A stretch of DNA of 59,939 nucleotides, taken from assembly GCA_017471925.1 (NCBI GenBank), contig JAFURM010000018.1, forward strand, positions 1 to 59,939, written 5' to 3'. A model generated the notes under the pieces. It had not been told where the DNA came from. It did not search any database and worked only from the letters and a program-made list of their open reading frames with translations. Shown piece by piece: positions 6,917 through 47,895 of this stretch (position 1 is the stretch's first letter; each line of letters opens with the position of its first letter). Both the position numbers and the translations under genes were made by a program. The stretch is from Bacteroides sp. (GTDB lineage Bacteria; Bacteroidota; Bacteroidia; Bacteroidales; Bacteroidaceae).

Positions 6917-6937
6917 TCATTTAAACATAGAACTGAT

Positions 6938-9820: not shown

Positions 9821-11245
9821 ATGAAAAAAATAGCAATATATGCCTTCGCTCTTCTGGCAATGGGATTTACCGCATGTACAGAGGAATTTGGCGATTGGGC
9901 AGAGCCGCAAGGTTTTGAACAGGAAGAAGCTGTTACTGTTTCTTTCTCTGCTACGGCAGGTGCTCCTATTGACATGGCTACAGTAACCACCGAAAAGGTT
10001 TCTGTATTTACCCCTTCAGTAACGGCAGAAGGAATGACCTCCGTTTCTTATGCCATAGAGATAGAAGGAACGGATTTTGAAACCGATGCACAAGGAAATG
10101 TATCTGTAGAAGAGTTGAAGAAAGTAACCGAATCCAAGTTTGGGAAAGCTCCCGAACAACGTACATTGGCAGCAACTGTAAGTGCCTTCATCGCTATGGG
10201 CGAGGAAGAAATACTCAAAGAAACCGCCCCCATTGAAATCAAGGTGACTTTGGTTGCTCCAGACATTGCACAGGCTTACTACTTAGTGGGCGATATGATT
10301 GGTTGGGACGATGCCACTATGCAAAAGTTTGAGCATAGCGAAACCAACGTTTACGATGATCCCATCTTCAAGATCGTATTCAATGTTTCAGAAAGCGAGA
10401 GCGGTCAATATTGGAAGATTATCCCGCAGACCAATATTGACGCTAACGATTTCTGGGCTAATCCCGGCGTTATAGGCGTAGCTATTGATGGCGATGACAG
10501 CATGTCAGGCAACTTAGTCAATGAAAATGCACAGGCCGGTAGGATTGTAGAAGCTGGCAAGTATGTGATGACTATTGACATGCTGAACTATACTTACAAT
10601 ATTGAAAAGGCTCCTGAGTTTGAAAACATGTACGTCACTGGTTCAGGCACCTATGATTGGAAATGGAATAATCCCGCGCAACAGTTTGTTCCAGTATGGG
10701 GTGAAGAAGGAACCTTCTGGAGCATTCAGTATCTTGCAGCCGATGCAGAAATTAAATTTTGCCCTGATGCAGAGTGGAGCGGTCGTGAGTTTGGTTACTC
10801 AGAAGAATGGATTGATGCAGCCTCTATCGAATTGGCAGGTTTGTCTGATAGTGGTGGTAACATCAAGGTGGGAAAGGCCGGCTGGTACACCATCTACATT
10901 ACCATCAATGCAACCAGCAAGAGCGTCAAGTTCTATAATGCAGAAGTTTACCTGATGGGACCGACTATTGACGCATCTTGGGGTGAGAACCTGGAAGCAG
11001 CCAAGTTCACTACTCCCGAAACTGCTGATGGCGAATTTGTTTCACCCGCATTTACTGGCGCAGGCGAAATTCGTGCATACGTTTCTGTACCTGAATTAGT
11101 AGGAAACTGGTGGAAAGCCGAATTCATGGTATTCGACGGTAAAATCGTATACCGCGGCAACGGTGGTGACCAAGAGCGCATACAAGGTGAAGTGGGTCAA
11201 AAGCTCTACCTGAACTTTACAACCATTACAGGACATATCGAATAA
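9821..11245 (+). CDS. SusF-like starch-binding outer-membrane lipoprotein
   Basis: A 474-residue lipoprotein (lipobox MGFTAC, cysteine near residue 19), close in size to SusF (about 485). An N-terminal Ig-like domain (about 30-145) is followed by what look like three carbohydrate-binding repeats: near 150-265 (YYLVGDMIGWDDA), 270-370 (MYVTGSGTYDWKWN) and 375-474 (VYLMGPTIDASW). Its role would be surface retention of glucan for SusCD. The 3' end is odd. Past its TAA stop the same frame continues with a stretch that also ends another susF-like relic at 12568-12744, so the present C-terminus probably came by recombination with a different allele. Confidence 0.87.
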   Translation: MKKIAIYAFALLAMGFTACTEEFGDWAEPQGFEQEEAVTVSFSATAGAPIDMATVTTEKVSVFTPSVTAEGMTSVSYAIEIEGTDFETDAQGNVSVEELKKVTESKFGKAPEQRTLAATVSAFIAMGEEEILKETAPIEIKVTLVAPDIAQAYYLVGDMIGWDDATMQKFEHSETNVYDDPIFKIVFNVSESESGQYWKIIPQTNIDANDFWANPGVIGVAIDGDDSMSGNLVNENAQAGRIVEAGKYVMTIDMLNYTYNIEKAPEFENMYVTGSGTYDWKWNNPAQQFVPVWGEEGTFWSIQYLAADAEIKFCPDAEWSGREFGYSEEWIDAASIELAGLSDSGGNIKVGKAGWYTIYITINATSKSVKFYNAEVYLMGPTIDASWGENLEAAKFTTPETADGEFVSPAFTGAGEIRAYVSVPELVGNWWKAEFMVFDGKIVYRGNGGDQERIQGEVGQKLYLNFTTITGHIE

Positions 11246-11249
11246 TCAA

Positions 11250-11316
11250 ACATGTCAACCAACCCCAACACCATCACATTCAACAAGCAATAAGCTGAAT
11301 GCGAAACGGATAAATC
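11250..11316. repeat. 67-bp direct repeat, copy 1 (orphan susF tail)
   Basis: This stretch matches 12701-12767 with two mismatches. In the frame of the preceding gene it would encode MSTNPNTITFNKQ and a stop, but it lies after that gene's own stop codon. It is the leftover last codons and 3' flank of a former susF-like gene. Confidence 0.9.
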
Positions 11317-11356
11317 AAAACAGGCGCGAGTTTTGCTCGCGCCTGTTTTTTATTTT
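11317..11356 (+). terminator. Intrinsic terminator of the sus-like operon
   Basis: AAAACAGGCGCGAG (11317-11330) pairs perfectly with CTCGCGCCTGTTTT around TTTTG, followed by a T-rich tail. It is a strong terminator 71 bases after the susF-like stop. Confidence 0.95.
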
Positions 11357-11410
11357 ATCCAAACTGAGAGTCTGTTTTGAATTTATTCCATTCTTTTATT
11401 ATTCGCTTTC

Positions 11411-12567
11411 CATGAGTTTCTTTTCGGCTCTTTTGCCCGTTCTTTCTCCAATTGCTATGGTGGTTGGATAGTTCTTGGTGTGAAGCAAGAGGGCAAAACG
11501 TACTCCATACAGGGGGTGGACAATATCGAAAAATTGGAGCAAGATTTCTTCAGCACATTAAGGTCGCAGAAATTCAATGCACAATTGATTGCTCAACCAA
11601 AGAGATATATTATTGATGGCAAGAAGCTATTGGCATTCTACATACCTGCATCAAAAATCAAACCCATTTATTTCAATGTACCTTCAAATACATTTATACG
11701 AATGGGAAGTGGTGATCAACGAGCAACGGAAGCGGAAATAAACGCAATGTTCCGAGACCAATCATTTGGAATAAAGACAGAACAGTTTATCCCTACAAGC
11801 AATTTTGACATGATCAATAGTGCTTCATTGCAGTCATATAGAAGCTATGTGAAAGTATACAATTCAGATAGAGCATATCCCGAATTAGATGATGCTTCGT
11901 TCTGCAACAAGATTAAATTCTTGAACGACAATGGCGAAATTTCCTATTCGTGTCTCTTGATGTTTGGCAAAGGAGAGTATGTACAACAATTTGTACCCAC
12001 CTTTGCATTAAGCTACCTTGAGATACCCGGTATAGATGTCGCCAGTGCCAAGCAGCGTTATACCTACAAATTACCTGAACAGGACAATATTTGGGAATCA
12101 TATTTAATCATTATGAGACGACTGCAAACCGTTGTGAATGTACCTTTTGGTAAGATAAATCACCTTGGCGTTGCAGAACACAATACATCGATGTCTGATA
12201 TAGTCAGAGAGGCCCTTGTGAATTTCTGCCAACATGCCGATTTCTTCAGTCCTCTCAGATCTTCAATACATGTATTTCTAAATCGTATAGAGTTCTTGAA
12301 TGCAGGAAGGGCGCGAATCTTGGCGCGAATGAGACTAAAGTAATAGAAAATGGCGCGAATCTTGGCGCGAACAAACAACGTATATTGCATGCAATTCAGA
12401 TTGACAATACGCTATCTGTCCTTAAACTTCAAGTTTTAACTAATATTCCATTACGAACCCTACAGCGAGAGATCAATGAACTGATTGAACTTGGGGCGCT
12501 CGAGAAAGGAGGAACAAGAAAAAAGATTATTTGGGCCATAAAGGACAATAGAAGAAACCAAGTGTAG
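11411..12567 (+). pseudogene. Broken AlbA_2/Schlafen-type ATP-binding protein gene
   Basis: The readable part starts in mid-domain (SFSNCYGGWIVLGVKQEG), with no start codon upstream and a stop at 11378-11380, so the first 40-60 residues are missing or decayed. The main frame (from GTG 11480) continues to 12343 and includes a histidine-kinase-like ATPase region (VREALVNFCQHAD, then HVFLNRIEFLNAG). At about 12300-12310 the frame shifts. The other frame gives GANLGANETK, ENGANLGANKQ and then a C-terminal winged helix (IPLRTLQREINELIELGALE), ending at 12567. Roughly 100 residues normally found between the two parts are absent. It is therefore N-truncated, internally deleted and frameshifted. Intact relatives are putative regulators found widely in Bacteroides. 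Confidence 0.8.
12310..12371. repeat. Two copies of GGCGCGAATCTTGGCGCGAA inside the pseudogene
   Basis: The 20-base unit occurs at 12310-12329 and 12352-12371. In the shifted frame each encodes GANLGAN, a linker motif common ahead of the C-terminal winged helix of this protein family. The repetition may have helped the deletion that broke the gene. Confidence 0.8.
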
Positions 12568-29724: not shown

Positions 29725-30918
29725 TTATTGCAGGAAGACGGGGTCAATGATTTCCTCGCCCTTATACTTGTTTTTCTCCTTCTCATCCTTTTCACTCTTC
29801 TCACCCTTCTCGGCCTTTCCGTCCTTCAGTGCTTCCTCTTCGGCTTCAGGTGCTGCATTCTGCACTTTGTCGGTCTCGGCAGGCTGTTCCGCCTGTTGCT
29901 TCCGGGCCTTGTTCTTCTTGCTCTTCTTCAGGAATCCGTCAGGATAGCTCACTTCGTTGATGATTTCATCGCCACGCAGGCGAATCCAGGTGTCCAGCGT
30001 GCGTTCCCCTTCCTTCAGGAGAATGACGCGTGCGCCATTCTTGCCCAGGTGATTGTACACCGTCTTGCCACCGGAGTAGCGTCCATAGGCCAGCATCACG
30101 CCATGATACATCACGGCAAAGTCATTATCGTGGTCGTGTCCGCAGAAGGTGGCCATGATGTCTCCCTGCTCCTTGATGGCTGCAAACATGCCCGAGTTCA
30201 GCTTGGGACTGCAGACATCCTCTCCCTTGGAGCCTACCAGAGCACAATCCTCATCGGCCTCGGCCAAGGCATATTCGGGAAGGGGGATGTGGAAGAAGGC
30301 CAGCGAAGGGACGGGTTCGCCGCCATTGGCCTCCTGGAAGGCATCGCTATGCTCGCGATACCACTCAATCTGGTCGAACCTCAGCCAGGCATATCCGGCC
30401 ACATCGCGCAACACGCCACGGGCATGGGTGTCCATGCAATAGAAGACGGCCGCCGTGCGCGTGCTGTCGTTAGAGAGAACGGTCAGCAGATAGTCTGGAC
30501 TGTCCACTCCGTCGCGGTCGGGCATGATGCAATAGGGCATCTTGCGCACCAGGTCATACATTTCGGCATTGGTGCAGTCGAACTCGGCATCATGATTGCC
30601 GAAGACCATGGCAAAGGGTATCTTCCGCTCGGATATGCACCCCAGCAGTGCCGGCAGGCTTTGCGCCACCGACTTGGAGTAGACCTGATCACCGGTGAGT
30701 ATCACCAAATCGGGTTGTTCGGCATCCAGCACCTCCTTGATGCACTCCACGGCAGCTTCAGAAGCTTTCTTGCCCCACTTGTAGTGCGTATCAGTAAACT
30801 GCACAATCTTGAATGTTCCATCTTCCGAAAAACGGAGCGGCGCCACCTCCTGCGCATGGGCAGCAATGCCCATGTACAGGAAAAGCAGGAGGAGTACACC
30901 CGATAACTTGCGTTTCAT
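29725..30918 (-). CDS. Secreted calcineurin-like metallophosphoesterase
   Basis: A 397-residue exported enzyme, last gene of the tubulin-like operon. The signal peptide ends near AAHAQ (23). All metal-binding motifs of the family are present: D43-x-H45 (FTDTHYKWG), GD near 76-77, GNHD at 107-110, FFHIPLPEY and CGHDHDND. The substrate is unknown; relatives cut phosphomonoesters or diesters. After residue 315 the C-terminus is a highly charged lysine/glutamate tail, probably disordered. Only three bases separate it from the upstream SUMF1-like gene, so translation is probably coupled. Confidence 0.9.
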   Translation of the reverse strand: MKRKLSGVLLLLFLYMGIAAHAQEVAPLRFSEDGTFKIVQFTDTHYKWGKKASEAAVECIKEVLDAEQPDLVILTGDQVYSKSVAQSLPALLGCISERKIPFAMVFGNHDAEFDCTNAEMYDLVRKMPYCIMPDRDGVDSPDYLLTVLSNDSTRTAAVFYCMDTHARGVLRDVAGYAWLRFDQIEWYREHSDAFQEANGGEPVPSLAFFHIPLPEYALAEADEDCALVGSKGEDVCSPKLNSGMFAAIKEQGDIMATFCGHDHDNDFAVMYHGVMLAYGRYSGGKTVYNHLGKNGARVILLKEGERTLDTWIRLRGDEIINEVSYPDGFLKKSKKNKARKQQAEQPAETDKVQNAAPEAEEEALKDGKAEKGEKSEKDEKEKNKYKGEEIIDPVFLQ

Positions 30919-30921
30919 AAC

Positions 30922-32127
30922 TTATTGTTCGTCTATAACCAACACCAGACGGAGGCCTACACAGCCCTCCTTCACATTTTCTTCCCAACGGCGACGGTAA
31001 GAAGAGCGCAGCTGGGTCTTGTCCTTGCAGTCATAGCCACCGCCACGGCGCACGCGGTTCTTGTTCTTGTCCGTCTCCACAGGATTGGTCACGAAGTCTT
31101 TCTTGTACTCGGCCTTGTAGTCCCAGCACATTTCCCACACGTTGCCGCTCATGTCATAGAATCCCAGTTCATTGGGTTTCTTGGACTTCACGGGGCGGGT
31201 GGAGTTCTGGCTGTTGTTGTAGTACCAGGCCACTTCGTCGGGATCGGCACTGCCGCAATACATGGTGCGGTTGGTCTTGTCACCGCCACGGGCTACATAT
31301 TCCCACTCGGCCTCGGTGGGCATACGGAAGCGTTTCTTGGTCAGCTCGCTCAGTTTTTCGCAGAATTGCTTACACTCCTCCCAAGTCACGTTCTCCACGG
31401 GATGTTGGGGATTGGGGAATACAGAGGGGTTATATCCCATGATACGTTCCCACAGTTCCTGAGTCACTTCCGTCTCACCCATGTAGAAGAAGTTGGTCAG
31501 TCTCACCTTGTGTACGGGGAATTCGTCCTTGTCGGCACCGATCTGCTCGGGCGTACCGCCCATCTCGAACATGCCGGGACGCACCTTGATCATGTTGAAT
31601 TCTACCGGCTTGCTGCCATCGTCAAAGACGGGATTGAGTTTCAGGGGAAGGATTTCCACGTCACTGCCTGCCGCAGCCGAAGCCTGTCCGGCATTCTGTC
31701 CGCCCTGATTCTGCTGCATGTTGGCCAGCATGCCCTTGATAGCAGCCAGTTCGGCATCAGTCTTGGAACCAAAGTTCATGATGTAGGTCTTCAGTTTCTC
31801 CACCTTGAAGGGGAAGTCATAGCGCACAGCCTCGGTCCAGCTGGTAGACTTCGCCATGAGCCAGGTGGCTTCTTCAATCATGTAGACCCAATATTCATTT
31901 CCGCCCTTGTTTTCAACCTTGATGATGTCGCCTTCAAAGGTCACGTTATCACCCTTTGCACTCACTTTCACCAGGCCACAGGGGCTACCGTTCAGGTCTG
32001 TCACTTGGTGTACCTGTGCAGAAAGGTCTGCCGGGTCGGCTTCAAACTTCGTCACTACCATTGCATCCTGTGCCCAAACGAAGGCATAGGCGATGCAGAA
32101 AGCACATACAAATAAAATACGTTTCAT
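30922..32127 (-). CDS. Secreted SUMF1/FGE-fold protein
   Basis: A 401-residue exported protein. The signal peptide ends at AFVWAQ. Residues 20-150 are of unknown fold. Residues 175-398 are a formylglycine-generating-enzyme domain (MIKVRPGMFEMGGTPEQI, RMPTEAEWEYVARGG, LGFYDMSGNVWEMCWDYK, GCVGLRLV). In true FGE two cysteines five residues apart near the C-terminus do the chemistry. Here only the first position seems kept (RRGGGYDCKDKTQLRSSYRR), and no sulfatase is nearby. It is therefore more likely a structural or ligand-binding C-lectin-like fold, as in GldK/GldJ-type envelope proteins. It is the seventh gene of the tubulin-like operon. Confidence 0.88.
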   Translation of the reverse strand: MKRILFVCAFCIAYAFVWAQDAMVVTKFEADPADLSAQVHQVTDLNGSPCGLVKVSAKGDNVTFEGDIIKVENKGGNEYWVYMIEEATWLMAKSTSWTEAVRYDFPFKVEKLKTYIMNFGSKTDAELAAIKGMLANMQQNQGGQNAGQASAAAGSDVEILPLKLNPVFDDGSKPVEFNMIKVRPGMFEMGGTPEQIGADKDEFPVHKVRLTNFFYMGETEVTQELWERIMGYNPSVFPNPQHPVENVTWEECKQFCEKLSELTKKRFRMPTEAEWEYVARGGDKTNRTMYCGSADPDEVAWYYNNSQNSTRPVKSKKPNELGFYDMSGNVWEMCWDYKAEYKKDFVTNPVETDKNKNRVRRGGGYDCKDKTQLRSSYRRRWEENVKEGCVGLRLVLVIDEQ

Positions 32128-32181
32128 GTTATATCAGTAAACTTTTAGATTATTATTGCATTCATAGAAAGCGAGACGGCA

Positions 32182-33159
32182 TCAGGGGAGTCGGAAGTCG
32201 CCCAATGAGAAGCGTTCCTGGTTCAGCGGTTGCCAGGTGCGCACATGAATCTTCGGGGTGTCCTCGTTGGAGAAGTCCCACACCAGGAAGACGATACCCT
32301 CGTCGCTGTAGTTGGAAGCGTGCCATTTCTGCTTCAACGTCACTCCATAGAAATTGGGTTTGGCGGCGTGACGCTTGATTTCATACTCGTCAAACTGCAC
32401 GTTGATGTAATAGTTCGGACGGTTGAACATGGCGCGCAGCTTGCCCAGGTATTGCTTCTTGCTTTGGGTGATATATTCCACCTTGTTGCTCGTCATGCCC
32501 AGGTCGTTCTTCTCGCGCTTCATGGTGAGTTTGCCGGTGATAATCAGGGCGTCATCGCTGAAGATGTTCTCCATGAAGTTGATGTTCTTGTCGTTGTATG
32601 CCTTCTTGAACTGCTCGCACCAGTGGATAATCTGCAGGCGGCGGTCAAGGTCGTCCAGGCGCACACCCTCCTTCATCAGGCGGGTATAGGTCTGGGTCTC
32701 CATGGCAAAGTTGAAGTCCACGATGCGTCCCGTGGTGCTGAAGTCCACGCAGATTTCGCGGCGCATCTCGCTGTTGTAGGTGTCGTTCAGGGGAATCATA
32801 CTCACACCGATGTTGCGCACCTGATAGCCGCGCAGCATGCCGTTCTTCTTCTGCAGACGGATGCAATGCTCCACGATGTCATTGTCTTCCGTGCGGAAGT
32901 GTACGTTGTTCCACGTCAGGCCGATGGTCTGCGAAGCCAGAGGGTCAATGTCCACATTGGAATAGTTGATGTCCGTCCCCATCGCTTCGGCCGTATTGAT
33001 GGCGGTCAGCAGATTCATCAACTGTTTTTCCATTTTCGCCTTCAGCGTCATGTTTTCAATGCCGTCCGAGAACTCAAATAAGACACTATTGTCGTCTTGC
33101 GCCTGTAAGGCAGAGCAGCCTGCCCACAATAAAAAGGCAATAAAAATACTCCTCATCAT
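32182..33159 (-). CDS. Secreted protein with C-terminal NTF2-like domain
   Basis: A 325-residue protein starting MMRSIFIAFLLWAGC, with a signal peptide ending near ALQAQ. The same frame is open for another 105 codons, but that part is antisense-free overlap with the preceding gene and lacks a signal, so ATG 33159 is the start. Residues 180-300 look NTF2/SnoaL-like (WCEQFKKAYNDKNINFMENI, FSDDALIITGK, then NYYINVQFDEYEI), a cone-shaped ligand-binding fold. The first 170 residues are unrecognised. It is the sixth gene of the tubulin-like operon. Confidence 0.75.
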   Translation of the reverse strand: MMRSIFIAFLLWAGCSALQAQDDNSVLFEFSDGIENMTLKAKMEKQLMNLLTAINTAEAMGTDINYSNVDIDPLASQTIGLTWNNVHFRTEDNDIVEHCIRLQKKNGMLRGYQVRNIGVSMIPLNDTYNSEMRREICVDFSTTGRIVDFNFAMETQTYTRLMKEGVRLDDLDRRLQIIHWCEQFKKAYNDKNINFMENIFSDDALIITGKLTMKREKNDLGMTSNKVEYITQSKKQYLGKLRAMFNRPNYYINVQFDEYEIKRHAAKPNFYGVTLKQKWHASNYSDEGIVFLVWDFSNEDTPKIHVRTWQPLNQERFSLGDFRLP

Positions 33160-33182
33160 ATTATCTTGTTTTTTGTTAATCG

Positions 33183-34040
33183 TTATTTGCCAAACTGAAA
33201 CCACACGGCATTCTTGCCCGGATAGTTCTTCAAGGAGTCTTGCTGACGGGTCTTGAAGTTCTTGCGTGAGTCGCTGCCGGGGCCCAGGATAGTTATCAGA
33301 GTCATGCTGGAGTCGGTGTCGAACAGAATCCAGTAGCTTCCGTTCACGTCCTTGCACTCCTTGTAGGTGCCGAAGCGCTTCACGATGTGCTCGCCCTGCA
33401 TGCGGTTGAGCAGTGCGGCGGCATCGTTCAGGTTGGTCTTCTCCAGAAGCTGCATGATGGCCGACTGTTGCCATGCCGTCAGGGCTGCAGGTTCCGAGGA
33501 GTCGCGTGCGGGAACGTTGGGCACCACAGGATTGGGTGCTTCGGGCACCACAGTGCTGTTGTTATTATTGTTGTTGTTGCCGTTGGCCATCAGGTCGTTG
33601 ATGGACTCGTTCAGGATGTCCTGCTGTATGTTCGAGCCGGAGGGGGTGTCGGGAGTTTCGGGTGTGGGTGCGGGTGCAATCGGCTCCACTTTCGTTTCGG
33701 CCATGTCACTGCTTGCCCCGAAGTCGCTCTTCTTCACGTAGACAAAGACGCGCATCATGGGTCCGCGCTTCATCTTCAGGGACTGTGCATTGCCCAGGTC
33801 GGTCTCCTTGATTTTCTTCTCCGGCGTACCGTTCTCGTTCATGTAGTCGTTGATGCGGTTCATCAGCATCAGCATGGCAGACTCGCGTGCCTCCTCTTCG
33901 GTGGCCAGCGTGGACTCTGCATAGAAATATTCTCCGGTCCGTTTAATGGAATTGATTTGCTTGCCAACTTCAGACTGGGCAAACGTCATGTTCACTACCG
34001 CTACTGCGGCCAATAAAAGCATTCCTATACGCTTTTTCAT
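33183..34040 (-). CDS. Secreted protein with LPP20-like N-terminal region
   Basis: A 285-residue exported protein (signal peptide ends NMTFAQ). Residues 28-110 resemble the LPP20/FlgT-type fold seen in envelope proteins (TGEYFYAESTLATEEEARES, then MLMLMNRINDYM). A proline- and asparagine-rich linker follows (APAPTPETPDTPSG; NGNNNNNNNS). A C-terminal domain (190-285) has WQQSAIMQLLEKTNLNDAA and ECKDVNGSYWILFDTD. The function is unknown. It is the fifth gene of the operon, six bases after the previous one. Confidence 0.65.
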   Translation of the reverse strand: MKKRIGMLLLAAVAVVNMTFAQSEVGKQINSIKRTGEYFYAESTLATEEEARESAMLMLMNRINDYMNENGTPEKKIKETDLGNAQSLKMKRGPMMRVFVYVKKSDFGASSDMAETKVEPIAPAPTPETPDTPSGSNIQQDILNESINDLMANGNNNNNNNSTVVPEAPNPVVPNVPARDSSEPAALTAWQQSAIMQLLEKTNLNDAAALLNRMQGEHIVKRFGTYKECKDVNGSYWILFDTDSSMTLITILGPGSDSRKNFKTRQQDSLKNYPGKNAVWFQFGK

Positions 34041-34046
34041 ACCAAA

Positions 34047-35171
34047 TTACATTTTTAGTTCTTCAAACAGGTTCTTAATTCGTGAAGTGGGGATATAGCT
34101 GTTCAGGCGGACAGTCATCGAACCTTTCTTGTCCAGCAACTGCTCCACATCGCAGGTCACCTTCATGGTGTGACAATATCCCTCTTCTATGTTACGGGCT
34201 ACCAATTGGCAAACCGCTGTATTTTCTTCAAAACTGATGATGCCGAAATAGAGCGTGCATCCTTGCTGCAAGAAGTAGTTCACGAACTGTGCCAGTGACA
34301 CCGAGAAGTTGTCTTCCTTGAAGTCGTACATCTTCAGGCGCACCTTCACTTCGAAGCCGTTTTCCAGTTCCAGTGTGGTGAGCAGGTTGGCCAGGCTCTC
34401 CATGGGATACTTGCGGTTGAATATCAACTGAAACTGCCCGTCGGGAGCCTTTTCGTAGTAGCGGTTGGTATTCAGCAAGTCCGTGTAGTAGCTTTCGCCG
34501 GTCATCACGTAATAGTTGGGCTGGAAAGTCGTGAAGAGTTGTTCGCGTTTCACCTGCAAAGGCTCCACCTTTCCGGGGACAACTTTCTTCATGCCCTCGG
34601 CGATGCGCCTCTCGTTCTCCACCATCTCCGTACCATGCAGCAAATCGTAGTCGATGGGGAAATCTACCGAACAACGCAGTTTTTCTCCCTTGTACCAGCT
34701 CACCTTGTAGCGTTTGTCGTTCAGGTTGTCAATCGTCACGTTCAGCGTGGTGTCGCCCACCAGCTTGTTCAGCGTGGCGAAGGTGCCTTCTGAGAAGGCG
34801 ATGTCGTCCTCAGCCAGCTGTTTTTCCACCGTCTTTTCGCGTTTCATCGGCAGTGCGGCAGCCAGCGTATAACGCTCCAGGAAGTCGTATACGGGAGATT
34901 TCAGGAGTGTCCGCTGCCGGGTGGAGAAGATGGTGTACCCGATGTGGGTCACCACTCCTTTCTCTACCACTACAGTCAGCGGCTGTTTCTTGTACGCATA
35001 TTCATGCGTGTAGCAGCCATCTTTCAGTGTATCCAACTGAGCAGACAACTGCAAAGATTCCGCCATACGGGTCAGCACGTCGGCCCGATAGCTGTTCTGC
35101 GCAGTCATCAAACATGCATTCGCCCACAAGCCAGCCAATGCCAAACCAATATAGCGGAATCTGCGTTTCAT
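34047..35171 (-). CDS. Secreted protein of unknown function
   Basis: A 374-residue exported protein, signal peptide ending near CLMTAQ. I do not recognise the family. It is rich in beta-strand-like segments with no transmembrane helix after the signal (CYTHEYAYKKQPLTVVVEKG; YYTDLLNTNRYYEKAPDGQF). The C-terminal third contains QFVNYFLQQGCTLYFGIISF and a final basic stretch. It probably lies in the periplasm or on the outer membrane. It is the fourth gene of the tubulin-like operon, 16 bases after the zinc-ribbon gene. Confidence 0.6.
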   Translation of the reverse strand: MKRRFRYIGLALAGLWANACLMTAQNSYRADVLTRMAESLQLSAQLDTLKDGCYTHEYAYKKQPLTVVVEKGVVTHIGYTIFSTRQRTLLKSPVYDFLERYTLAAALPMKREKTVEKQLAEDDIAFSEGTFATLNKLVGDTTLNVTIDNLNDKRYKVSWYKGEKLRCSVDFPIDYDLLHGTEMVENERRIAEGMKKVVPGKVEPLQVKREQLFTTFQPNYYVMTGESYYTDLLNTNRYYEKAPDGQFQLIFNRKYPMESLANLLTTLELENGFEVKVRLKMYDFKEDNFSVSLAQFVNYFLQQGCTLYFGIISFEENTAVCQLVARNIEEGYCHTMKVTCDVEQLLDKKGSMTVRLNSYIPTSRIKNLFEELKM

Positions 35172-35187
35172 ATTACCTTATATTATA

Positions 35188-35808
35188 TTAGATAATAAAC
35201 GTTTTGCGTTCACCATTTGCACGGTGGAGTTCGCCCTGTTTCAGAACGCCGTTCACAAATTTCGCGGCTTTGATTTTGTCACCGGGAGCTACTTCCAGCG
35301 TACCGCCGTTGCCGTCCTTCAGGTCGATGGAATAGTTCTGCTTGATGTCAAGCTCGCCACCTATACCGTGGGGCTGGCCACCGCTCAGCGGACCGTCATA
35401 GACAGCCCAACCCAGGTTCTTCTTGCCGGAAGTCTTGACGGGAGCGGGTGTCTGACCTTCACCGGTCTTGCCGGTTGCAGTTGCGCCTTCGCCGGTCTTG
35501 TCGGTACCGGCAGTCTGCTCGGTAGCAGGTTCTTCCTTGTCGCCATCACCGGCAGCAAGGAAATATCCGCCCACACACAGCACGGCCACTGCAGCCACGC
35601 CAATGATGATTTTCTTCATGTCGAGACCATCACCGCCACCGGTCTTGCCACCACCGGTCTTGCCACCGCCGGTCTTGCCGCCCACCTGGTTCAACGGTTT
35701 ACCACACTCTGAACATACGAAGTTCGTCTTTTCGGCTTCTTGTTCCACTTTTTCGGCTGCCAGGTCGCAACCGTCCACATTTCTGCAAATACCTTTTAGC
35801 TTTGCCAT
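35188..35808 (-). CDS. Zinc-ribbon, single-TM, MORN-like protein
   Basis: A 206-residue protein with four clear parts. Residues 8-35 form a zinc ribbon with Cys8, Cys14, Cys32 and Cys35 (C-x5-C-x17-C-x2-C). Residues 43-60 are a glycine linker of GGKTGG repeats. A transmembrane helix follows at about 66-86 (IIIGVAAVAVLCVGGYFLAA), then a disordered linker, and a C-terminal domain (about 130-206) with PLSGGQPHGIGGELDI, like a MORN repeat. The zinc ribbon would be cytoplasmic and the MORN-like part periplasmic, so it could link the tubulin-like protein, encoded 24 bases upstream, to the envelope. That link is inference. Confidence 0.75.
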   Translation of the reverse strand: MAKLKGICRNVDGCDLAAEKVEQEAEKTNFVCSECGKPLNQVGGKTGGGKTGGGKTGGGDGLDMKKIIIGVAAVAVLCVGGYFLAAGDGDKEEPATEQTAGTDKTGEGATATGKTGEGQTPAPVKTSGKKNLGWAVYDGPLSGGQPHGIGGELDIKQNYSIDLKDGNGGTLEVAPGDKIKAAKFVNGVLKQGELHRANGERKTFII

Positions 35809-35832
35809 AATCGTTTCTATTTTTACAGGTTA

Positions 35833-38800
35833 TTATAATTCTTTCAGTTGTTCGTCCATGATTTCGCGAGCCAGAGCCTTATACTTGGCATAGACGGGGC
35901 TGAACTCGTTGTTCTCACAGGCAGGTGAGGGCAGGATTTTCTCCTTCAGCACGGCCACCAGCGCCTTGCGCATGGCCACCTTCTGCTCGTTGGAGCGGCA
36001 CATGGTGCGCATGTTCTGGTCTACCAGTGCCATCACCTTCTGAGCCAGGGCATAGTCTTCACCCAGGTAGTCGATGGTGGCCAGGATGTCCTTGCCGGCC
36101 TTCACCCAGTTGTCGTCGCCGAACTCGTCGGGGAAGTTGATGGCATCGAAGCGGGCACCTGTCGTGGGGTCGCTCTTCTGTACGAACAGCCCCATGGCAT
36201 AGGCCAGCAGTACGGGTTTGGTCACCATCATCTTGATTTCGGCCGTCTCCATCTCGAAGAGTGAGGGGAGCGGTTTGGCAAAGGTCTCGGTGTGGAGCAC
36301 CATCTTGTTCAGTGCGGCATCGGGAGCTGCGAGCATGTCTTCGTAGCGTTTCTTCAGCACCTTCACGTTGGAGACATAGCGCAGGGGGAATCCTGAGGCT
36401 GCGGCCACAATCACAATCTGATTGTTCTTGTAGTTCACGGAGACATCTTCCTTCGGGTTGAAGCCCGGATAGATCTGTACGAAGGCGTTGATCAGCTTGT
36501 CGCGGAAGCCGCTGGTGTCATCGTCAAACTTGGGCACGCAGAGCTGAATCATCTTCATCATGCTGCCGCCACCGCCGCCGAAGACTTTGGCCTGCTCTTC
36601 GCTGTTGAACTGCAGGTAGGTCATGGCCGAGTTCACCATGGAGCGTGCCAGTTGTTCCAGCTTCTCTTCGGAGTTGCACTCCTGTTTCAGTTTCTCCAGG
36701 ATGTTCACGCCCACCATCTTGTTCAGCGGGTCGGCCTTGGCGGCATCTTCCATGGCTGCCACGGCGTTCTGCTGGCACACTTCAAGCACGATGCCTGTGG
36801 TGGTTTCGTAGTCGGTCTTGTCGCAGAGGTTCACGAAGGTACGCTCGCCGTCCTCGCCCAGGGCAGCCACCAGCTTGTTGCGGATGGAGAGGGCATTGCC
36901 GCTCTGGTATTCCTGGTTCACGATGCAGGTCTTGGTGAAACGCTGCACCAGGTCGGGGTCGTACTTCTTCATGGTCATGCTCTCATCGGCCATTTCTTCC
37001 TTCTTGCACTTGCTGTCGGCCTGACGGGCCACCTCTTCCAGGATCTCGCTGAGGATGGCTCTGTAGTGCACCACGCCGTCCAGCATGAGGCCGAGCTGTT
37101 CGATGACGGCCTGCATCAGTTCCACGGCATAGCGGTAGGCTTCAATGCGTGTGGCGGTGGTGTAGAAGTCACACTTGGCCGTCTTGTAGGCACTGAAGAC
37201 CTTCTTGGAGGCACCGGTGATGGCATCTCTCAGCCAGCCGATGTTGTTCCATTCGGTGTTGCACTGGGCGATGGTCACGTTGATGTTCTCCAGTTCCTCT
37301 TCCTGCAGGGCAATCTGCTCCTTGAAGGCCGTGATGCGTTCCGTACAGTCGGCAATGAGCAGGCGGGTATATTTCTCCACTTCGAGAACGCTCTTCACAC
37401 CGCTCTTCCATTCGTCGAACAAGAGGTTTTCGATGTGACGGCGGATGTGCTTGGCATAGGCTGCACGCTCGCCGCGCTGTGCTTCATAGAACTTCTTCAC
37501 ACCGAGCGAGCGGAAATTCTTGTCGTAATAGTCGTTGCAGGAGTCGGTAAAGAGGGCCAGCCAGCTCTTCTTGTCGGCCGAGGTCTGGGCATCATCGGCA
37601 AAGTCCTGTGTGCGCTCTTCCCACGTGGCATCAATGTCGTGCCAACGCTTGGTGCCGGCATTCTCAATGACGGGTTTGGAGAGCATCAGGTAGGAGTTGG
37701 AGAGCATCAGGCGTTCGCGGTTCTTGCGGTCCTTCACCTCGGCTGCATAGCCGCTGCCCACCTCTTCCAGGGAGCACTCGCCATAGCCGATGCCTTCCTG
37801 CCACATATTGAACTGCAGCTGGCGGGCGGCCTGACGGGCGTAGTTATAGGTTACGTATTCTTCGATTTCCGTTTCAGGATATTCAATGCGCTTGATGCCG
37901 AAGGAGAGGAACTTGCGGCTGCGTGCGGGCTTGTTGGAGCGGTCGTTCTCGGGACCTGCACCGTCGTTTTCGCAGCCCACCAGGCGGCTCATCTTGCCGG
38001 CATCGCCCGACATTTCGCTGGCCACCACCTTCTGGAAGATGAAGTCGGCCACAGCGGCGGGAAGGCCGTGACCCAGGTCGAGTACCTTGCCTGCTTCGTT
38101 CACGTTGGAGTAGAGGTAGGCGGCTTCGAAAGCGTTGATACCACCCAGGAGGCGCTGCACCTCACCGGTGTAGTTATCCTTCTGTCCCGACACATCGAGG
38201 GGCAGGTACTGGCCGATGCTCATGGCGTTCAGCTCGCAGAGGGCGGCATAGCCGTTGGCCTGATAGAAACCACTGTCGTGGGAGGTGTTCACCACGTTCA
38301 TTTCGGGCACGTAGAGGTAGAGGTTCACCTTATATTTGTCTCCGTTAACACCCGGCTGGGGTGCAAACTCCTTGCGGATTTGGGAAATGGCATCCACGAT
38401 GGAGCCGGAGCCTGTACCACCGGCCAATCCGGCGCAGAGGTGGAAGGTCACGGCCGAGTCGCCTGAACCTTGCGTGATGCGCATCACGGCCTGCTTCACG
38501 CGGGAAACGAAGTCACTGTTGGCATCCTTCACGCTCATGTTGTTGGCCAGCAGGGTGCGGCCCAGGCGGCGGCGCTGTCCGCCGATACCGGCTGTGATCA
38601 GCGGACCCAGTTTGGAGGTCATCAGGTTCACGTCGTCCGAATTGAGGAAGCAGCTGATGCCGGGATACATGGAGAGATTGCTGAACATGCTGGCGCTGAC
38701 ACCGTGGATAGAGACCTTCTGAGCCTCCTGCAGGTGGACAGACTTACCCATCACCTTCCAGCCCGCGCGGCTATCCAGGTCGGCGGGAGAAGAATCCACA

Positions 38801-38928
38801 TAGATATATTCCAGGTTGATATTGTTGGTTGGTTCATTGGAGTGGAACTCTTCGTACACTCTCTTTCTCAACTCACGGAGCACCTTACCTCCGGTGCCGC
38901 CGAGTCCGATAATCAAATGGTTTGCCAT
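35833..38928 (-). CDS. Tubulin-like GTPase family protein (Tub_2 type)
   Basis: A 1031-residue cytoplasmic protein. The N-terminus has the glycine-rich nucleotide loop of the tubulin/FtsZ fold (LIIGLGGTGGKVLREL, 5-20), a strand like the FtsZ N-T-D segment (YIYVDSSPADL, 41-51), a glycine loop GIGGQRRRLGR (114-124) and the tubulin signature AGGTGSGS (169-176). The remaining 650 residues exceed any FtsZ or tubulin; they include long helical, possibly coiled-coil, stretches (ERITAFKEQIALQEEELENI) and end in an acidic-basic tail. Proteins like this are annotated as tubulin-like but their role is unknown. It is the second gene of an eight-gene operon, placed between two genes for membrane proteins. 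Confidence 0.85.
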   Translation of the reverse strand: MANHLIIGLGGTGGKVLRELRKRVYEEFHSNEPTNNINLEYIYVDSSPADLDSRAGWKVMGKSVHLQEAQKVSIHGVSASMFSNLSMYPGISCFLNSDDVNLMTSKLGPLITAGIGGQRRRLGRTLLANNMSVKDANSDFVSRVKQAVMRITQGSGDSAVTFHLCAGLAGGTGSGSIVDAISQIRKEFAPQPGVNGDKYKVNLYLYVPEMNVVNTSHDSGFYQANGYAALCELNAMSIGQYLPLDVSGQKDNYTGEVQRLLGGINAFEAAYLYSNVNEAGKVLDLGHGLPAAVADFIFQKVVASEMSGDAGKMSRLVGCENDGAGPENDRSNKPARSRKFLSFGIKRIEYPETEIEEYVTYNYARQAARQLQFNMWQEGIGYGECSLEEVGSGYAAEVKDRKNRERLMLSNSYLMLSKPVIENAGTKRWHDIDATWEERTQDFADDAQTSADKKSWLALFTDSCNDYYDKNFRSLGVKKFYEAQRGERAAYAKHIRRHIENLLFDEWKSGVKSVLEVEKYTRLLIADCTERITAFKEQIALQEEELENINVTIAQCNTEWNNIGWLRDAITGASKKVFSAYKTAKCDFYTTATRIEAYRYAVELMQAVIEQLGLMLDGVVHYRAILSEILEEVARQADSKCKKEEMADESMTMKKYDPDLVQRFTKTCIVNQEYQSGNALSIRNKLVAALGEDGERTFVNLCDKTDYETTTGIVLEVCQQNAVAAMEDAAKADPLNKMVGVNILEKLKQECNSEEKLEQLARSMVNSAMTYLQFNSEEQAKVFGGGGGSMMKMIQLCVPKFDDDTSGFRDKLINAFVQIYPGFNPKEDVSVNYKNNQIVIVAAASGFPLRYVSNVKVLKKRYEDMLAAPDAALNKMVLHTETFAKPLPSLFEMETAEIKMMVTKPVLLAYAMGLFVQKSDPTTGARFDAINFPDEFGDDNWVKAGKDILATIDYLGEDYALAQKVMALVDQNMRTMCRSNEQKVAMRKALVAVLKEKILPSPACENNEFSPVYAKYKALAREIMDEQLKEL

Positions 38929-38954
38929 AGTTTGTAATTTAATATGTTATTGAA

Positions 38955-39587
38955 TTAGAAATCATTGTTCCGTCTGCTCCGGCGTGCGGCCGCACCTCCT
39001 CTGCGCATGGAGACTCTGTAGACCTCCATCGTCTTCACCACGATGAAGGTGCCCACGATGATGAAGCCCAGGCACCAGGCCACGCGGCGCAGGATGTACC
39101 GGTTCATGAAGCTGTGAATCTCGTCCACCATGGACTGGGCAACGGTGGCCGGCGTATGTCCCCGAAAGTCCGCCGTGCCCACGTAGCAGGCGAAGAGCGG
39201 ATATTCATCCCTCAGGTTGTCGCAAATCTGCTGGGTCTCGTCGGTCGTGAAGGCATGGTCACAGGCCACCCACGACTGCGGAATGTAGCTGTTGATGGAG
39301 GCGTACATCTCGTCCGTCATGCCCTTGATCTTGAAAGCACCGCAGATGAAGACCGACTGAAAGGCCACCAGTACGAAGATGACGGCACCCGCCACGAAAC
39401 TCAGCGGAGTGAAGGTATATTTCGGATAAAAACTCCTGATGAGATAAAAGAGCAACGCCACGCCGGCTATTGCCAAAAGAACGCCCCAGAACATGCTGTC
39501 CATGGCATAGTGCAAGATGTCAAACATCAGGCCGATAGAATTTAAAATTCCCATAATCCATTCAATTTTAAGGTTCTCCATGGCCAT
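38955..39587 (-). CDS. Three-TM membrane protein, first gene of the tubulin-like operon
   Basis: About 210 residues from ATG 39587; ATGs at 39581 and 39554 are possible. The longer frame from 39644 is excluded because it overlaps the -7 box. Transmembrane helices lie near 33-50 (FWGVLLAIAGVALLFYL), 60-85 (LSFVAGAVIFVLVAFQSVFI) and 170-187 (AWCLGFIIVGTFIVV). Between the second and third lies an 80-residue soluble domain with three cysteines (WVACDHAFTTDETQQICDNL, FACYVG). The C-terminus is arginine-rich (RRGGAAARRSRRN). The family is not recognised. It probably anchors the system in the inner membrane. Confidence 0.75.
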   Translation of the reverse strand: MAMENLKIEWIMGILNSIGLMFDILHYAMDSMFWGVLLAIAGVALLFYLIRSFYPKYTFTPLSFVAGAVIFVLVAFQSVFICGAFKIKGMTDEMYASINSYIPQSWVACDHAFTTDETQQICDNLRDEYPLFACYVGTADFRGHTPATVAQSMVDEIHSFMNRYILRRVAWCLGFIIVGTFIVVKTMEVYRVSMRRGGAAARRSRRNNDF

Positions 39588-39641: not shown

Positions 39642-39673
39642 CAAATGTAGGACTTTAATTTCATAAAGCCAAA
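39642..39673 (-). promoter_or_regulatory. Promoter of the eight-gene tubulin-like operon
   Basis: On the minus strand TTTG (39670-39673), 20 bases, then TACATTTG (39642-39649): both boxes match the Bacteroides consensus. It is the only good promoter I see for the genes from 39587 down to 29725; gaps within that run are 3-54 bases. Confidence 0.85.
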
Positions 39674-39834: not shown

Positions 39835-40130
39835 TTAACAGATTTTTAGTTTTGTAACATGTAACATGCTTGGTTATGTCACGGTTTTCACCCCCCTTTT
39901 TACCCCCTCTTCTCGTCTGAAAGTCTCTTTAGAATCTATGTTTAATATAATATATTGATATCAATATATTATATTAAAATACTTTTACTCTTTCTTCTCA
40001 AAAACGTCACTACCACCCCGTTTCTGCGTATTTCTAGGGCACTTTTTCGTGTTTTTCGATGATTTTTGCCGCCATTTTTCCCGCAAACACTCAGCCGATG
40101 TTACATGTTACAAAACTAAAAATCCGTTAA
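39835..40130. mobile_element. 296-bp nested inverted-repeat element (MITE-like)
   Basis: The ends are 33-bp inverted repeats with one mismatch (left 39835-39867, starting TTAACAGATTTTTAG; right 40098-40130, ending AAAAATCCGTTAA), each holding GTAACATGTAACAT or its complement. Near the centre, 39941-39978 is a perfect 38-bp palindrome of almost only A and T. No protein is encoded. The size, terminal repeats and lack of genes fit a miniature inverted-repeat element, but I see no clear target-site duplication. A structured regulatory RNA or replication-related site are alternatives. Confidence 0.6.
39941..39978. repeat. Perfect 38-bp palindrome
   Basis: TTTAATATAATATATTGAT (39941-39959) is exactly complementary to the next 19 bases (ATCAATATATTATATTAAA). 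There is no loop, so it would extrude as a cruciform or bind a dimeric protein. It sits close to the middle of the 296-bp element. Confidence 0.95.
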
Positions 40131-45354: not shown

Positions 45355-47895
45355 TCAGCCCAGGTTGTTCAGTTTCATCTCCAGGTCGGTCAGGTCCATG
45401 CAATAGACCTCACGGGGCTTGCTGCCCTGCGTGGGACCTACGATGCCGGCCTTCTCCAATTGGTCCATCAGGCGGCCTGCACGGTTGTAGCCGATGGAGA
45501 ATTTGCGCTGGATGAGCGAAGTGGAGCCTTGCTGATTGGCCACGATAAGGCGGGCCGCCTCCTCGAACAACGGATCCAGGCGGTCCATATCCACATCGGC
45601 CAGGTCGCTGCCTCCGCCATTCTCGTCCACATATTCGGGCAGGAAGAAAGCGGTGGGATAGCCCTGCTGCTTGGAGATGTAACGGGTTATCTCGGCAATC
45701 TCGGGCGTATCAATGAAGGCACACTGCACACGCACAGGGTCGGCTCCCTGCAGGAAGAGCATGTCGCCACGTCCGATGAGTTGGTTGGCTCCCGGACGGT
45801 CCAGGATGGTGCGGGAGTCTATCATGGCCGACACGCGGAAGGCGATGCGGGCGGGGAAGTTGGCCTTGATGGTACCGGTGATGATGTTGGTCGTGGGGCG
45901 TTGGGTGGCGATGACCATGTGGATGCCCACGGCACGTGCCAACTGGGCAATGCGGGCGATGGGCAGTTCTACCTCCTTGCCGGCCGTCATGATGAGGTCA
46001 CCGAACTCATCGATAACCACCACGATATAGGGCATATACTTGTGTCCCTTCTCGGGATTGAGTTTGCGGCTGATGAAGAGTTCGTTATACTCCTTGACGT
46101 TGCGCACGTGGGCCATCTTCAGCAGGTCATAGCGAGTGTCCATCTCCACACAGAGGGAGTTCAGCGTCTGCACCACCTTGGTCACATCGGTAATGACAGG
46201 TTCGCCACCGTCGGGCAGCTTGGCCAGGAAGTGATTCTCCAGCACCGAGTAGATGCTGAACTCCACCTTCTTGGGGTCTACCAGCACGAACTTCAGTTCG
46301 GCAGGATGCTTCTTGTAGAGCAGGGAGGCGATGATAGCGTTCAGGCCCACAGACTTACCCTGACCGGTGGCACCGGCCACGAGGAGGTGGGGCATCTTGG
46401 CCAAGTCCACCATGAAGACTTCGTTGGTGATGGTCTTGCCCAGTGCTACAGGCAGGTCGAAGGTGGATTCCTGGAACTTCTTGCTGCCTATGATGCTCTG
46501 CCCGGAGACGATTTTAGGCTTCTCGTTGGGCACCTCAATACCGATGGTTCCCTTGCCTGGAATGGGGGCAATGATACGTATGCCGAGAGCCTTTAGGTTG
46601 AGAGCGATGTCATCCTCCAGACCACGGATCTTATTGATGCGGACTCCCTGTTCCAGGGTTATCTCATAGAGGGTCACGGTGGGGCCGACGGTAGCCTTGA
46701 TGGTACTGATTTCCACCCCGAAGTTGCGCAGGGTGTTGACAATGTCATCCTTCTTGGCATTCAGTTCGTCCATGCCCACCGAGGTGCCATTGTCCTCATA
46801 ATGCTTCATGAGGTCCAGCGTCGGGAAGTGATAGAATTCCAGGTCAAGACGGGGATTATAAGGCTCACGTTCAGGGCCTTCATAGGCTTCATCCTCGGGA
46901 CGTTCCACGTCAAATCCCGGTTCCTTCTCATCCGGTTTCTCCGGCGACTCGTCTTGCGGTTTTTCGACCGGGCCGCCCACAGGGCCATCAACGGTTACAT
47001 CGGCCGGCTCATCACCGGGGCGTTCCACTTCAAGCGTCACTCCGTCTCCGTCATCGGGTTTCCCAGACACATCATCAGGAGTGTGTTCCAGTTCAATGAT
47101 GATGCTGCCGTCATCGACATTCTCCTCCTCGGAAGGAACGGACGTGCCAGCGGCTTCCACCTCCTCGTCAGCAGCAGGAGCATCGAACGGTTGTTCAGGT
47201 GTCTCGTCAGCAAACACGTCATCGGCATCGTCCGACAAACGGCAGCCCCCATCCTTCCGCTTCAGGAAGCTGAAGGTAAGTGCCTTGCGCAACCAGATGA
47301 TGGTATTGGCACTGAGGTAGATAAAGAAACAGACAGCCGTAATCAGCAGGAGCAGGAAGACTCCCGGAGGCCCCACCTGGGACTCTAACCAATAGCTGAT
47401 GTTGTGGCCATGCAGGCCACCCAGGTAGAAGAAGGTGTGGGCAGTCTGCTCCTTGAAGGCAAAACCGAAGCATATGGAAAACCATACCAGCACCAGACTG
47501 CACCCCACGAACCACTTCCAAAGACAGAACCTGCGCACACGCATCAGGTGCAATCCGGAGACAGTGAGAAAAGCCAGGATACAGAAAGAGGAGATGCCGA
47601 AGCAGTCATTGATGAGGCAGCTGGCCAGCTGGGCACCGCGCGAGCCGGCATAGTTCTGCACATCATTCTCGGACGAGGCCATTTCATGGGGATCGGCCGC
47701 CTCGATGATGCTCTGGTCGGCCGCTCCGGTGAAGAAGAACGAGGAGAAGGCCAACAGCAGGTAGACCGAAAAGATGACCAGCAGCAGTCCTACGATGAAG
47801 TGTAAGGTTTCATTCGAAAAAAAGAGCGTTATCTTCTTGAAAAGCGGCATGCGGCCGGAAGCCGGCGCTGTGTTTTCTGTTGTTTTCTTAGCCAT
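45355..47895 (-). CDS. ftsK: DNA translocase FtsK
   Basis: An 846-residue septal motor that pumps chromosome ends apart at division. The N-terminus has about four transmembrane helices (30-200). Residues 215-345 are an acidic, proline-rich linker with repeated D-x-P and E-K-P units. The RecA-like motor holds Walker A GATGQGKSVG (near 508) and Walker B YIVVVIDEFGDLI (near 630). The gamma winged helix ends the protein (RKFSIGYNRAGRLMDQLEKA). A minus-strand promoter is at 47935-47967. Confidence 0.97.
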   Translation of the reverse strand: MAKKTTENTAPASGRMPLFKKITLFFSNETLHFIVGLLLVIFSVYLLLAFSSFFFTGAADQSIIEAADPHEMASSENDVQNYAGSRGAQLASCLINDCFGISSFCILAFLTVSGLHLMRVRRFCLWKWFVGCSLVLVWFSICFGFAFKEQTAHTFFYLGGLHGHNISYWLESQVGPPGVFLLLLITAVCFFIYLSANTIIWLRKALTFSFLKRKDGGCRLSDDADDVFADETPEQPFDAPAADEEVEAAGTSVPSEEENVDDGSIIIELEHTPDDVSGKPDDGDGVTLEVERPGDEPADVTVDGPVGGPVEKPQDESPEKPDEKEPGFDVERPEDEAYEGPEREPYNPRLDLEFYHFPTLDLMKHYEDNGTSVGMDELNAKKDDIVNTLRNFGVEISTIKATVGPTVTLYEITLEQGVRINKIRGLEDDIALNLKALGIRIIAPIPGKGTIGIEVPNEKPKIVSGQSIIGSKKFQESTFDLPVALGKTITNEVFMVDLAKMPHLLVAGATGQGKSVGLNAIIASLLYKKHPAELKFVLVDPKKVEFSIYSVLENHFLAKLPDGGEPVITDVTKVVQTLNSLCVEMDTRYDLLKMAHVRNVKEYNELFISRKLNPEKGHKYMPYIVVVIDEFGDLIMTAGKEVELPIARIAQLARAVGIHMVIATQRPTTNIITGTIKANFPARIAFRVSAMIDSRTILDRPGANQLIGRGDMLFLQGADPVRVQCAFIDTPEIAEITRYISKQQGYPTAFFLPEYVDENGGGSDLADVDMDRLDPLFEEAARLIVANQQGSTSLIQRKFSIGYNRAGRLMDQLEKAGIVGPTQGSKPREVYCMDLTDLEMKLNNLG

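Follow-up and report, generated by a model that had tools for sequence, protein, structure and literature searches.

The operon built around a tubulin-like GTPase in Bacteroides sp. (GenBank assembly GCA_017471925.1, contig JAFURM010000018.1) is a mosaic of two co-inherited blocks that meet within one small membrane protein, ZnR. The stretch analyzed, here called the window, comprises positions 1 to 59,939 of that contig; the operon occupies positions 29725 to 39587 and consists of eight minus-strand open reading frames (ORFs), separated by 26, 24, 16, 6, 23, 54, and 3 bases in order from the first gene, TM. We consider it probable, at about 60%, that the products form a machine of two modules that spans the inner membrane, with ZnR coupling its halves; its binding contacts, filaments, and cellular job are parts of the picture that we infer. 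The job would be local organization or remodeling of the envelope, a proposal held with clearly less confidence than the machine itself. A preliminary description of the window had listed eight genes with gaps of 3 to 54 bases behind one promoter, which the ORF list and a motif scan confirm, and had proposed a single trans-envelope apparatus. What stands of that proposal is the repeated occurrence of the tubulin and both membrane proteins with exported proteins, and the mosaic now points to ZnR as their joint. The features are as follows.

39642..39673, minus strand: promoter of the Bacteroidota type (TTTG ... TACATTTG) ahead of the operon, from a motif scan
38955..39587, minus strand: TM, with three predicted membrane segments and a basic C-terminus, from a hydropathy count
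35833..38928, minus strand: TUB, a 1031-amino-acid (aa) tubulin-like GTPase of the FtsZl1/Tubulin_2 family (PF13809)
35188..35808, minus strand: ZnR, the putative coupler, 206 aa, zinc ribbon/membrane segment/MORN-like, from conserved cysteines and its correlation profile
34047..35171, minus strand: s374, 374 aa, exported (signal peptide by eye), fold unassigned
33183..34040, minus strand: s285, 285 aa, exported, N-terminal part perhaps LPP20-like (weak, from profile comparison)
32182..33159, minus strand: s325, 325 aa, exported, predicted NTF2-like fold, from a structure model and fold search
30922..32127, minus strand: seventh gene, 401 aa, exported SUMF1-type protein, from a match to the Pfam family FGE-sulfatase
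29725..30918, minus strand: eighth gene, 397 aa, exported metallophosphoesterase, from a match to the Pfam family Metallophos

Because its core recurs in 34 operons, the arrangement is far beyond chance. These operons were chosen for having the neighborhood of the window, and the counts given for them describe gene content within this type, on re-extracted ORFs; L042, which is the same place as L067, and L044, a fragment from the genome of L045, are left out of all counts. TUB, ZnR, s374, s285, and s325 were present in 34/34, and TM in 33/34, being not found in L082 and lying between two tubulin genes in L068. The outcome foreseen as fatal in the preliminary description, that neighbors would differ in every genome, did not occur: both membrane proteins and the exported trio (s374, s285, s325) recur together in 33/34 operons. 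Gene order is kept in the operons that were read, and the flanking genes vary from operon to operon.

Within this conserved order, the sequences fall into two blocks. Spearman correlations on pairwise protein identities, with Mantel p values, were computed for 32 operons (496 pairs), the near-duplicate L045 and the frameshifted L070 having been dropped. TUB correlates with residues 1 to 45 of ZnR (r = 0.64, Mantel p = 0.001), the ribbon part. Residues 128 to 206 of ZnR correlate with s374, s285, s325, and c4, a gene type found behind s325 in many operons, at 0.65 to 0.78 (0.66 to 0.78 for the trio; 0.78 for s325, p = 0.001), and these four agree mutually at 0.70 to 0.84. Across the boundary the signal vanishes: TUB gives 0.03 with ZnR 128 to 206 (p = 0.30), 0.01 with s374, 0.02 with s285, and 0.05 with s325 (p = 0.18). 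Neither block follows the host markers, ribosomal protein S1 and an 846-aa protein encoded at 45355-47895 (|r| at most 0.17, and −0.08 to 0.04 for TUB or s325), which correlate with each other at 0.69. Sliding windows along ZnR, on the same 32 operons, place the change: positions 1-55 follow TUB (0.72 falling to 0.44; 0.09-0.28 with the trio), positions 45-132, which comprise the linker and membrane segment, show no correlation above 0.17 with either side, and positions 133-206 follow the trio (0.52-0.68; at most 0.10 with TUB). The switch between modules lies within the linker/membrane segment, and the pattern points to ZnR as the joint, its ribbon tracking TUB and its MORN-like half the trio.

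The same exchange is seen when pairs of operons are sorted by class (33 operons, L070 dropped). In the 51 pairs that share a TUB type but differ in cassette, the ribbon part of ZnR is 72% and the C-terminal part 38% identical; the 44 pairs with different TUB and the same cassette give 43% and 66%, and the 415 pairs differing in both give 38% and 36%. The window and L067, from the same genus, share 83% identity in TUB but 37% in s325, 26% in s374, and 19% in s285. Overall, 12 TUB types and 13 cassette types occur in 23 combinations, under type thresholds of our own choice (65% for TUB, 62% for s325), which alone split the cassette type of the window from the nearby type of L045/L046 (58-59%). 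Approximately unbiased (AU) tests on the cassette data rejected TUB type 1 (p = 1e-58) and TUB type 2 (p = 1e-5) as clades, and on the TUB data rejected a clade of cassette type 1 (p = 1e-66). They used 32 rows (L070 and L061 left out), groups named after the identities had been seen, and quick trees under a simple model, with long branches for L076, L062, and L063 in the TUB tree and odd letter make-up of L077, L069, and L058 in the cassette tree. Agreement of the seventh gene with the cassette type holds in 33/33 operons compared, 25 of which belong to types represented more than once, but the gene splits three TUB types.

Neighboring genes could also be kept together by transfer alone, with no physical association of their products and a mosaic produced by recombination at a convenient spot. 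Horizontal transfer is indeed frequent here, and the ZnR linker of the window is of low complexity and could recombine easily. Gene order is nevertheless kept while the flanks differ, and inside one gene the ribbon is tied to TUB, the MORN-like domain to the cassette; this makes the explanation very unlikely.

Several observations do weigh against the two-module machine. The ribbon part correlates weakly with the trio and c4 (0.13-0.23) and, at 0.15 (p = 0.06), with the C-terminal part of its own protein, and the link of c5, found in 24/34 operons, to the cassette is loose (0.35-0.57). TM follows neither block well, with 0.19 for TUB (p 0.004), 0.25 for the C-terminal part of ZnR (p 0.006), 0.18 for s325 (p 0.02), 0.16-0.31 across ZnR 128-206, s374, s285, s325, and c4, and 0.01 for c5, weak correlations that assign it to neither side. 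Neither the T7 catalytic loop nor a filament interface could be placed in TUB, whose alignment with the FtsZ of the same genome reaches only the GGTG loop, and the cellular role is one that we only infer. Finally, many of the genomes behind these operons are drafts or were assembled from metagenomes. Mosaics were also found between genomes listed as 99-100% complete; for example, L080, on a 4.03-Mb contig, and L130, on a 52-kb contig, share 81% identity in s325 and 23% in TUB.

ZnR had been described beforehand as a zinc-ribbon/TM/MORN-like protein, and this holds in part. Its four near-invariant cysteines (C8, C14, C32, C35) are the basis of the term zinc ribbon, and neither the ribbon nor the MORN-like region of the window protein has a domain match in Pfam. 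MORN was matched in a homologue from a tubulin-free locus (L144), at E = 0.0015 and under the Pfam cut-off; there the MORN-like domain lies on a protein that starts with a signal peptide, and no zinc ribbon was seen on it. The expected layout is a cytoplasmic ribbon (residues 1-44), a linker and membrane segment (45-132), and a periplasmic MORN-like domain (133-206), a predicted topology.

TUB is tubulin-like, as first described: it matches PF13809 (Tubulin_2) at 174.7 bits against a cut-off of 27 (E = 4e-51). Its GTP-binding loops are GLGGTGG at 8-14 and GLAGGTGSG at 167-175, and the loop glycines vary little or not at all in 32 rows, do not vary in 15 rows that cover diverse types, and are kept between types that are only about 25% identical. 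It is not a canonical FtsZ (PF00091, 18.2 bits against a cut-off of 33). Since the division FtsZ (436 aa) is encoded separately in the genome of the window (G000:C55), the TUB gene is an extra tubulin-like gene. The structure model (mean predicted local distance difference test score [pLDDT] 86, predicted template modeling score [pTM] 0.72) has long helices at 514-561 and 573-638 but a C-terminal part of mixed alpha/beta structure, where FtsZl1 proteins are marked by an extended coiled coil and a mainly helical C-terminal domain. The top PDB folds for it are those of CetZ and of tubulins, at E 1e-5 to 4e-4 among the 50 matches listed, with template modeling scores of 0.30-0.51 by target length over ~360-400 aligned columns; a viral fold search gave two matches in total at E<=0.001, with phage FtsZ/tubulin-like proteins among the top. 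By sequence, no solved relative was convincing, the best being SUWA, in the helical region (E 0.001), and tubulin beta (E 0.08).

TUB could also act as a GTP switch, taking up a signal from the periplasmic complex or opening it, without filaments, in a signaling or transport device such as a referee of the 2010 FtsZl1 paper had proposed (PMC2875224, in the parts covered). An alignment with FtsZ that covers the GGTG loop only fits this idea, as would the receptor-like layout of a coupler spanning the membrane once with its ribbon in the cytoplasm. The fold search nonetheless recovers CetZ and tubulin over about 360-400 columns, and the 2010 authors stated in those parts that all characterized FtsZ-tubulin proteins form filaments (PMC2875224); we regard the switch as possible, if on balance doubtful. 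In the two-module machine that we prefer, the cytoplasmic module A would be an FtsZl1-type GTP-binding hub bound by the zinc ribbon of ZnR, and the extracytoplasmic module B would consist of the MORN-like domain binding the three exported proteins and variable further proteins. ZnR, as a single polypeptide, would join the two, and GTP-dependent assembly of the hub, possibly into filaments, would gather or position the periplasmic complex.

Three operons carry an extra tubulin-like gene upstream, encoding 774-861 aa (L083 9587-11911, L085 9480-11804, L068 12070-14655). In those of L083 and L085 the GTP loops are changed (GLGDNG/GLEDNG), GGTG is absent, and the frame is open in both species; they are perhaps GTPase-dead partners. 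A reading of the three genes as remnants of displaced alleles was rejected, as they are not simple remnants. In the window, a 604-aa open frame runs antisense to TUB (36652-38466, plus strand), probably an effect of codon composition.

The exported block also occurs without the tubulin. Among 395 genomes drawn from the phylum, s325 was found in 25, Tubulin_2 in 13, and both in 3, in one of which (G321) a sub-threshold Tubulin_2 match lies about 25 kb away. Apart from the two operons, this draw yielded s325 at full length in 19 loci and as a partial match within a longer protein in 15 cases. In 18 of the 19 full-length loci, surveyed within 6 kb on the same strand, we found s285 in 17, s374 in 8, an FGE/PEGA-family gene in 12, and a ZnR-profile match in 1, without the ribbon; TUB, TM, and the phosphoesterase were in none of the 18 over that range. 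Profiles from operons and from tubulin-free loci matched at 99.9% for s374, 99.6% for s285 (90 columns, C-terminal part), and 100% for s325, and the FGE set of the operons matched the tubulin-free PEGA set at 100%, the sets having been gathered with the same profiles and hence not being independent. Since the exported proteins and PEGA proteins also occur where tubulin does not, module B stands as a separate unit. That the operon encodes a trans-envelope machine with exchangeable halves, in which swappable tubulin-like engines plug through the ribbon into an exported assembly that works elsewhere without tubulin, is to us an evenly balanced proposition.

The genome of the window itself holds a second, tubulin-free s374-s325-s285 group (L129, G000:C56, around 5001-8387), with a transglutaminase-domain gene behind it. 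In four loci of another Bacteroidota family (L149, L150, L152, L153), the C-terminal domain of s325 lies inside proteins of 624-639 aa, with PEGA-type proteins nearby and a protein of >2100 aa that reaches the end of the retrieved stretch.

Of the five exported parts postulated earlier, the trio stands (34/34), and the other two are optional, a SUMF1-fold gene occurring in 8/34 operons and the phosphoesterase in 3/34. Signal peptides of all five were judged by eye. The s325 model (pLDDT 86, pTM 0.52) matches NTF2-like PDB folds at E 3e-6 to 2e-4, including the beta subunits of dioxygenases and an NTF2-like protein from Cytophaga; by sequence, no solved relative of s325 was convincing (top E 0.12). 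Kinship of s285 to LPP20 lipoproteins reached 37% probability in hhalign and was left as weak. The gene behind s325 is of the FGE/PEGA type (SUMF1) in 8/34 operons and of the c4 type in 26/34, never both; the c4-type genes of L068 and L075 are two distant ones among the 26. The FGE-type gene lies 1.4 kb past s325 in L053 and 1.0 kb past it in L058, with small unnamed ORFs between. In L077 the seventh gene (10692-12098) encodes PEGA repeats and a beta-barrel match of 27.6 bits, just over the cut-off of 27, so that the seventh protein of some cassettes may reach the outer membrane. The phosphoesterase was found in the window, L045, and L046, 56-58% identical (tblastn) and 1-3 bases behind the SUMF1 gene, a count to be read with the fact that in several of the other 31 operons (e.g., L083, L085, L058) the sequence stops soon past the seventh gene; judged by this distribution, it is an extra of the cassette lineage of the window.

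The operon is patchily distributed. In a draw of 251 genomes from the family, 38 match Tubulin_2, 34 of them above the cut-off; in a draw of 60 from the genus, 10 have TUB itself. Both draws include the genome of the window. Of 32 family-draw neighborhoods (31 retrieved plus the window, leaving out six of the 38, G140 and five weak matches), 24 contained the operon, 6 had other neighbors (G255, G295, G185, G169, G284, G181), and 2 were cut by a contig end (G189, G262). The genus draw gave the operon in 7/10, a c11/c12 context in G005, and a cut neighborhood in G006, with G002 left out. The 34 operons also take in L043, L045, L046, and L130 (G650, from another family of the order), and 31 of them fall in 11 coded genera. 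Whole operons also move: L047 and L085 come from different genera (a marker is 65% identical in aa) and share 85-94% nucleotide identity over the seven genes compared, with a synonymous divergence (dS) of 0.23-0.88 and a nonsynonymous divergence (dN) of at most 0.06. In non-saturated pairs dN is low against dS; synonymous sites are saturated in many pairs, and no relative ages are given.

Such a distribution would suit a conflict or defense system, a role named in the preliminary description, that is moved horizontally and diversified because phages or rivals target it. Presence in 38/251 family genomes, the cross-genus transfer of L047/L085, and the 23 pairings seen between 12 TUB types and 13 cassette types are what such a system might produce. 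However, PADLOC models gave only partial, unconvincing matches (E = 0.13 for TUB, 0.008 for the phosphoesterase), and no Pfam/NCBIfam toxin or nuclease was found among the proteins scanned. No s325 relative was found in a pattern-limited scan of IMG/VR viral contigs or in plasmid records, and a search with TUB, which covered phage but not plasmid records, gave no relative either. Close pairs also show the low dN against dS, and a defense role is accordingly unlikely.

Pfam names three of the eight window proteins (Tubulin_2 4e-51, FGE-sulfatase of the SUMF1 type 2e-43, Metallophos 1e-13), and the other five have no match above its cut-offs. TM probably starts nearer 39554, where its homologues start, than 39587. 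Bacteroidota promoters have the consensus TTTG, 18-23 bases, TANNTTTG; this consensus has 7 matches in the window against 0.52 expected. Between the operon and a glutamine-synthetase gene lies a 296-bp element (39835-40130) with 33-bp terminal inverted repeats (97%) and an internal 38-bp palindrome, which has the appearance of a miniature inverted-repeat transposable element; related ends occur on further contigs of the same genome (C18, C48, C32). No empty site could be shown, since the glutamine-synthetase gene of the window did not turn up in the 30 S1 loci examined together with 1.5-kb flanks.

If the exchangeable-halves reading is true, it would answer an objection raised in 2010. In the parts covered, the referee of the FtsZl1 paper saw no route by which a cytoplasmic FtsZ-like protein could work with exported, periplasmic partners (PMC2875224). 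Natural recombination here serves as a genetic test that names the coupler, sets the boundary in the linker/membrane segment, and assigns each domain a side, and the mosaic predicts which TUB types should bind which ribbons.

The nearest known system is FtsZl1 (Makarova and Koonin 2010, PMC2875224), which corresponds to PF13809 and was proposed as the center of a membrane-remodeling system. In the sections covered, it shares with the window operon an N-terminal tubulin-like domain, long central helices, a C-terminal extension, and operons with membrane and exported proteins, and it is stated to lack recognizable filament elements. Those sections stress vWA, kinases, GTPases, and OmpA, none of which was recognized in the window operon; zinc, MORN, and sulfatase are unmentioned in its main text, and module exchange and a coupler are not discussed in the sections covered. 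The family and the remodeling idea were thus already published, and the earlier suggestion of an undescribed system may still hold for the operon, of which we found no description among titles and abstract beginnings, preprints and most subscription papers being outside the search. In the parts covered, PMC9871819 treats Tubulin_2 as a divergent outgroup, and PMC5898192 merely restates the vWA link.

No vWA match was found in the eight proteins, one c4, and two c5, at a sensitivity limited enough that Pfam also missed vWA-like c11 proteins, and Pfam gave no OmpA-family/beta-barrel partner in the window. The c11-Tubulin_2-c12 loci of the same family (L056, L074, L079) resemble the window in their Tubulin_2 hub (916-979 aa). 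They differ in having upstream exported proteins that look vWA-like by eye (the two of L074 without a Pfam match) in place of the coupler and trio, and a downstream protein of 1143-1199 aa, with a papain domain in L074, the only locus tested. GldK/GldJ of type IX secretion and gliding, invoked in the preliminary description, have the SUMF1-type fold and export in common with the seventh protein; the analogy is not supported by the NCBIfam scores, which lie far below the cut-offs (65.8 of 350 and 47.2 of 458.2 bits), and the SUMF1 gene is optional here. The tubulin-free s285-s325 loci share with the operon homologous exported proteins and PEGA/SUMF1-family partners. To our knowledge, no other tubulin-superfamily system swaps its cytoplasmic engine independently of its envelope part, and the operon would be the first to do so if the exchangeable-halves reading is true.

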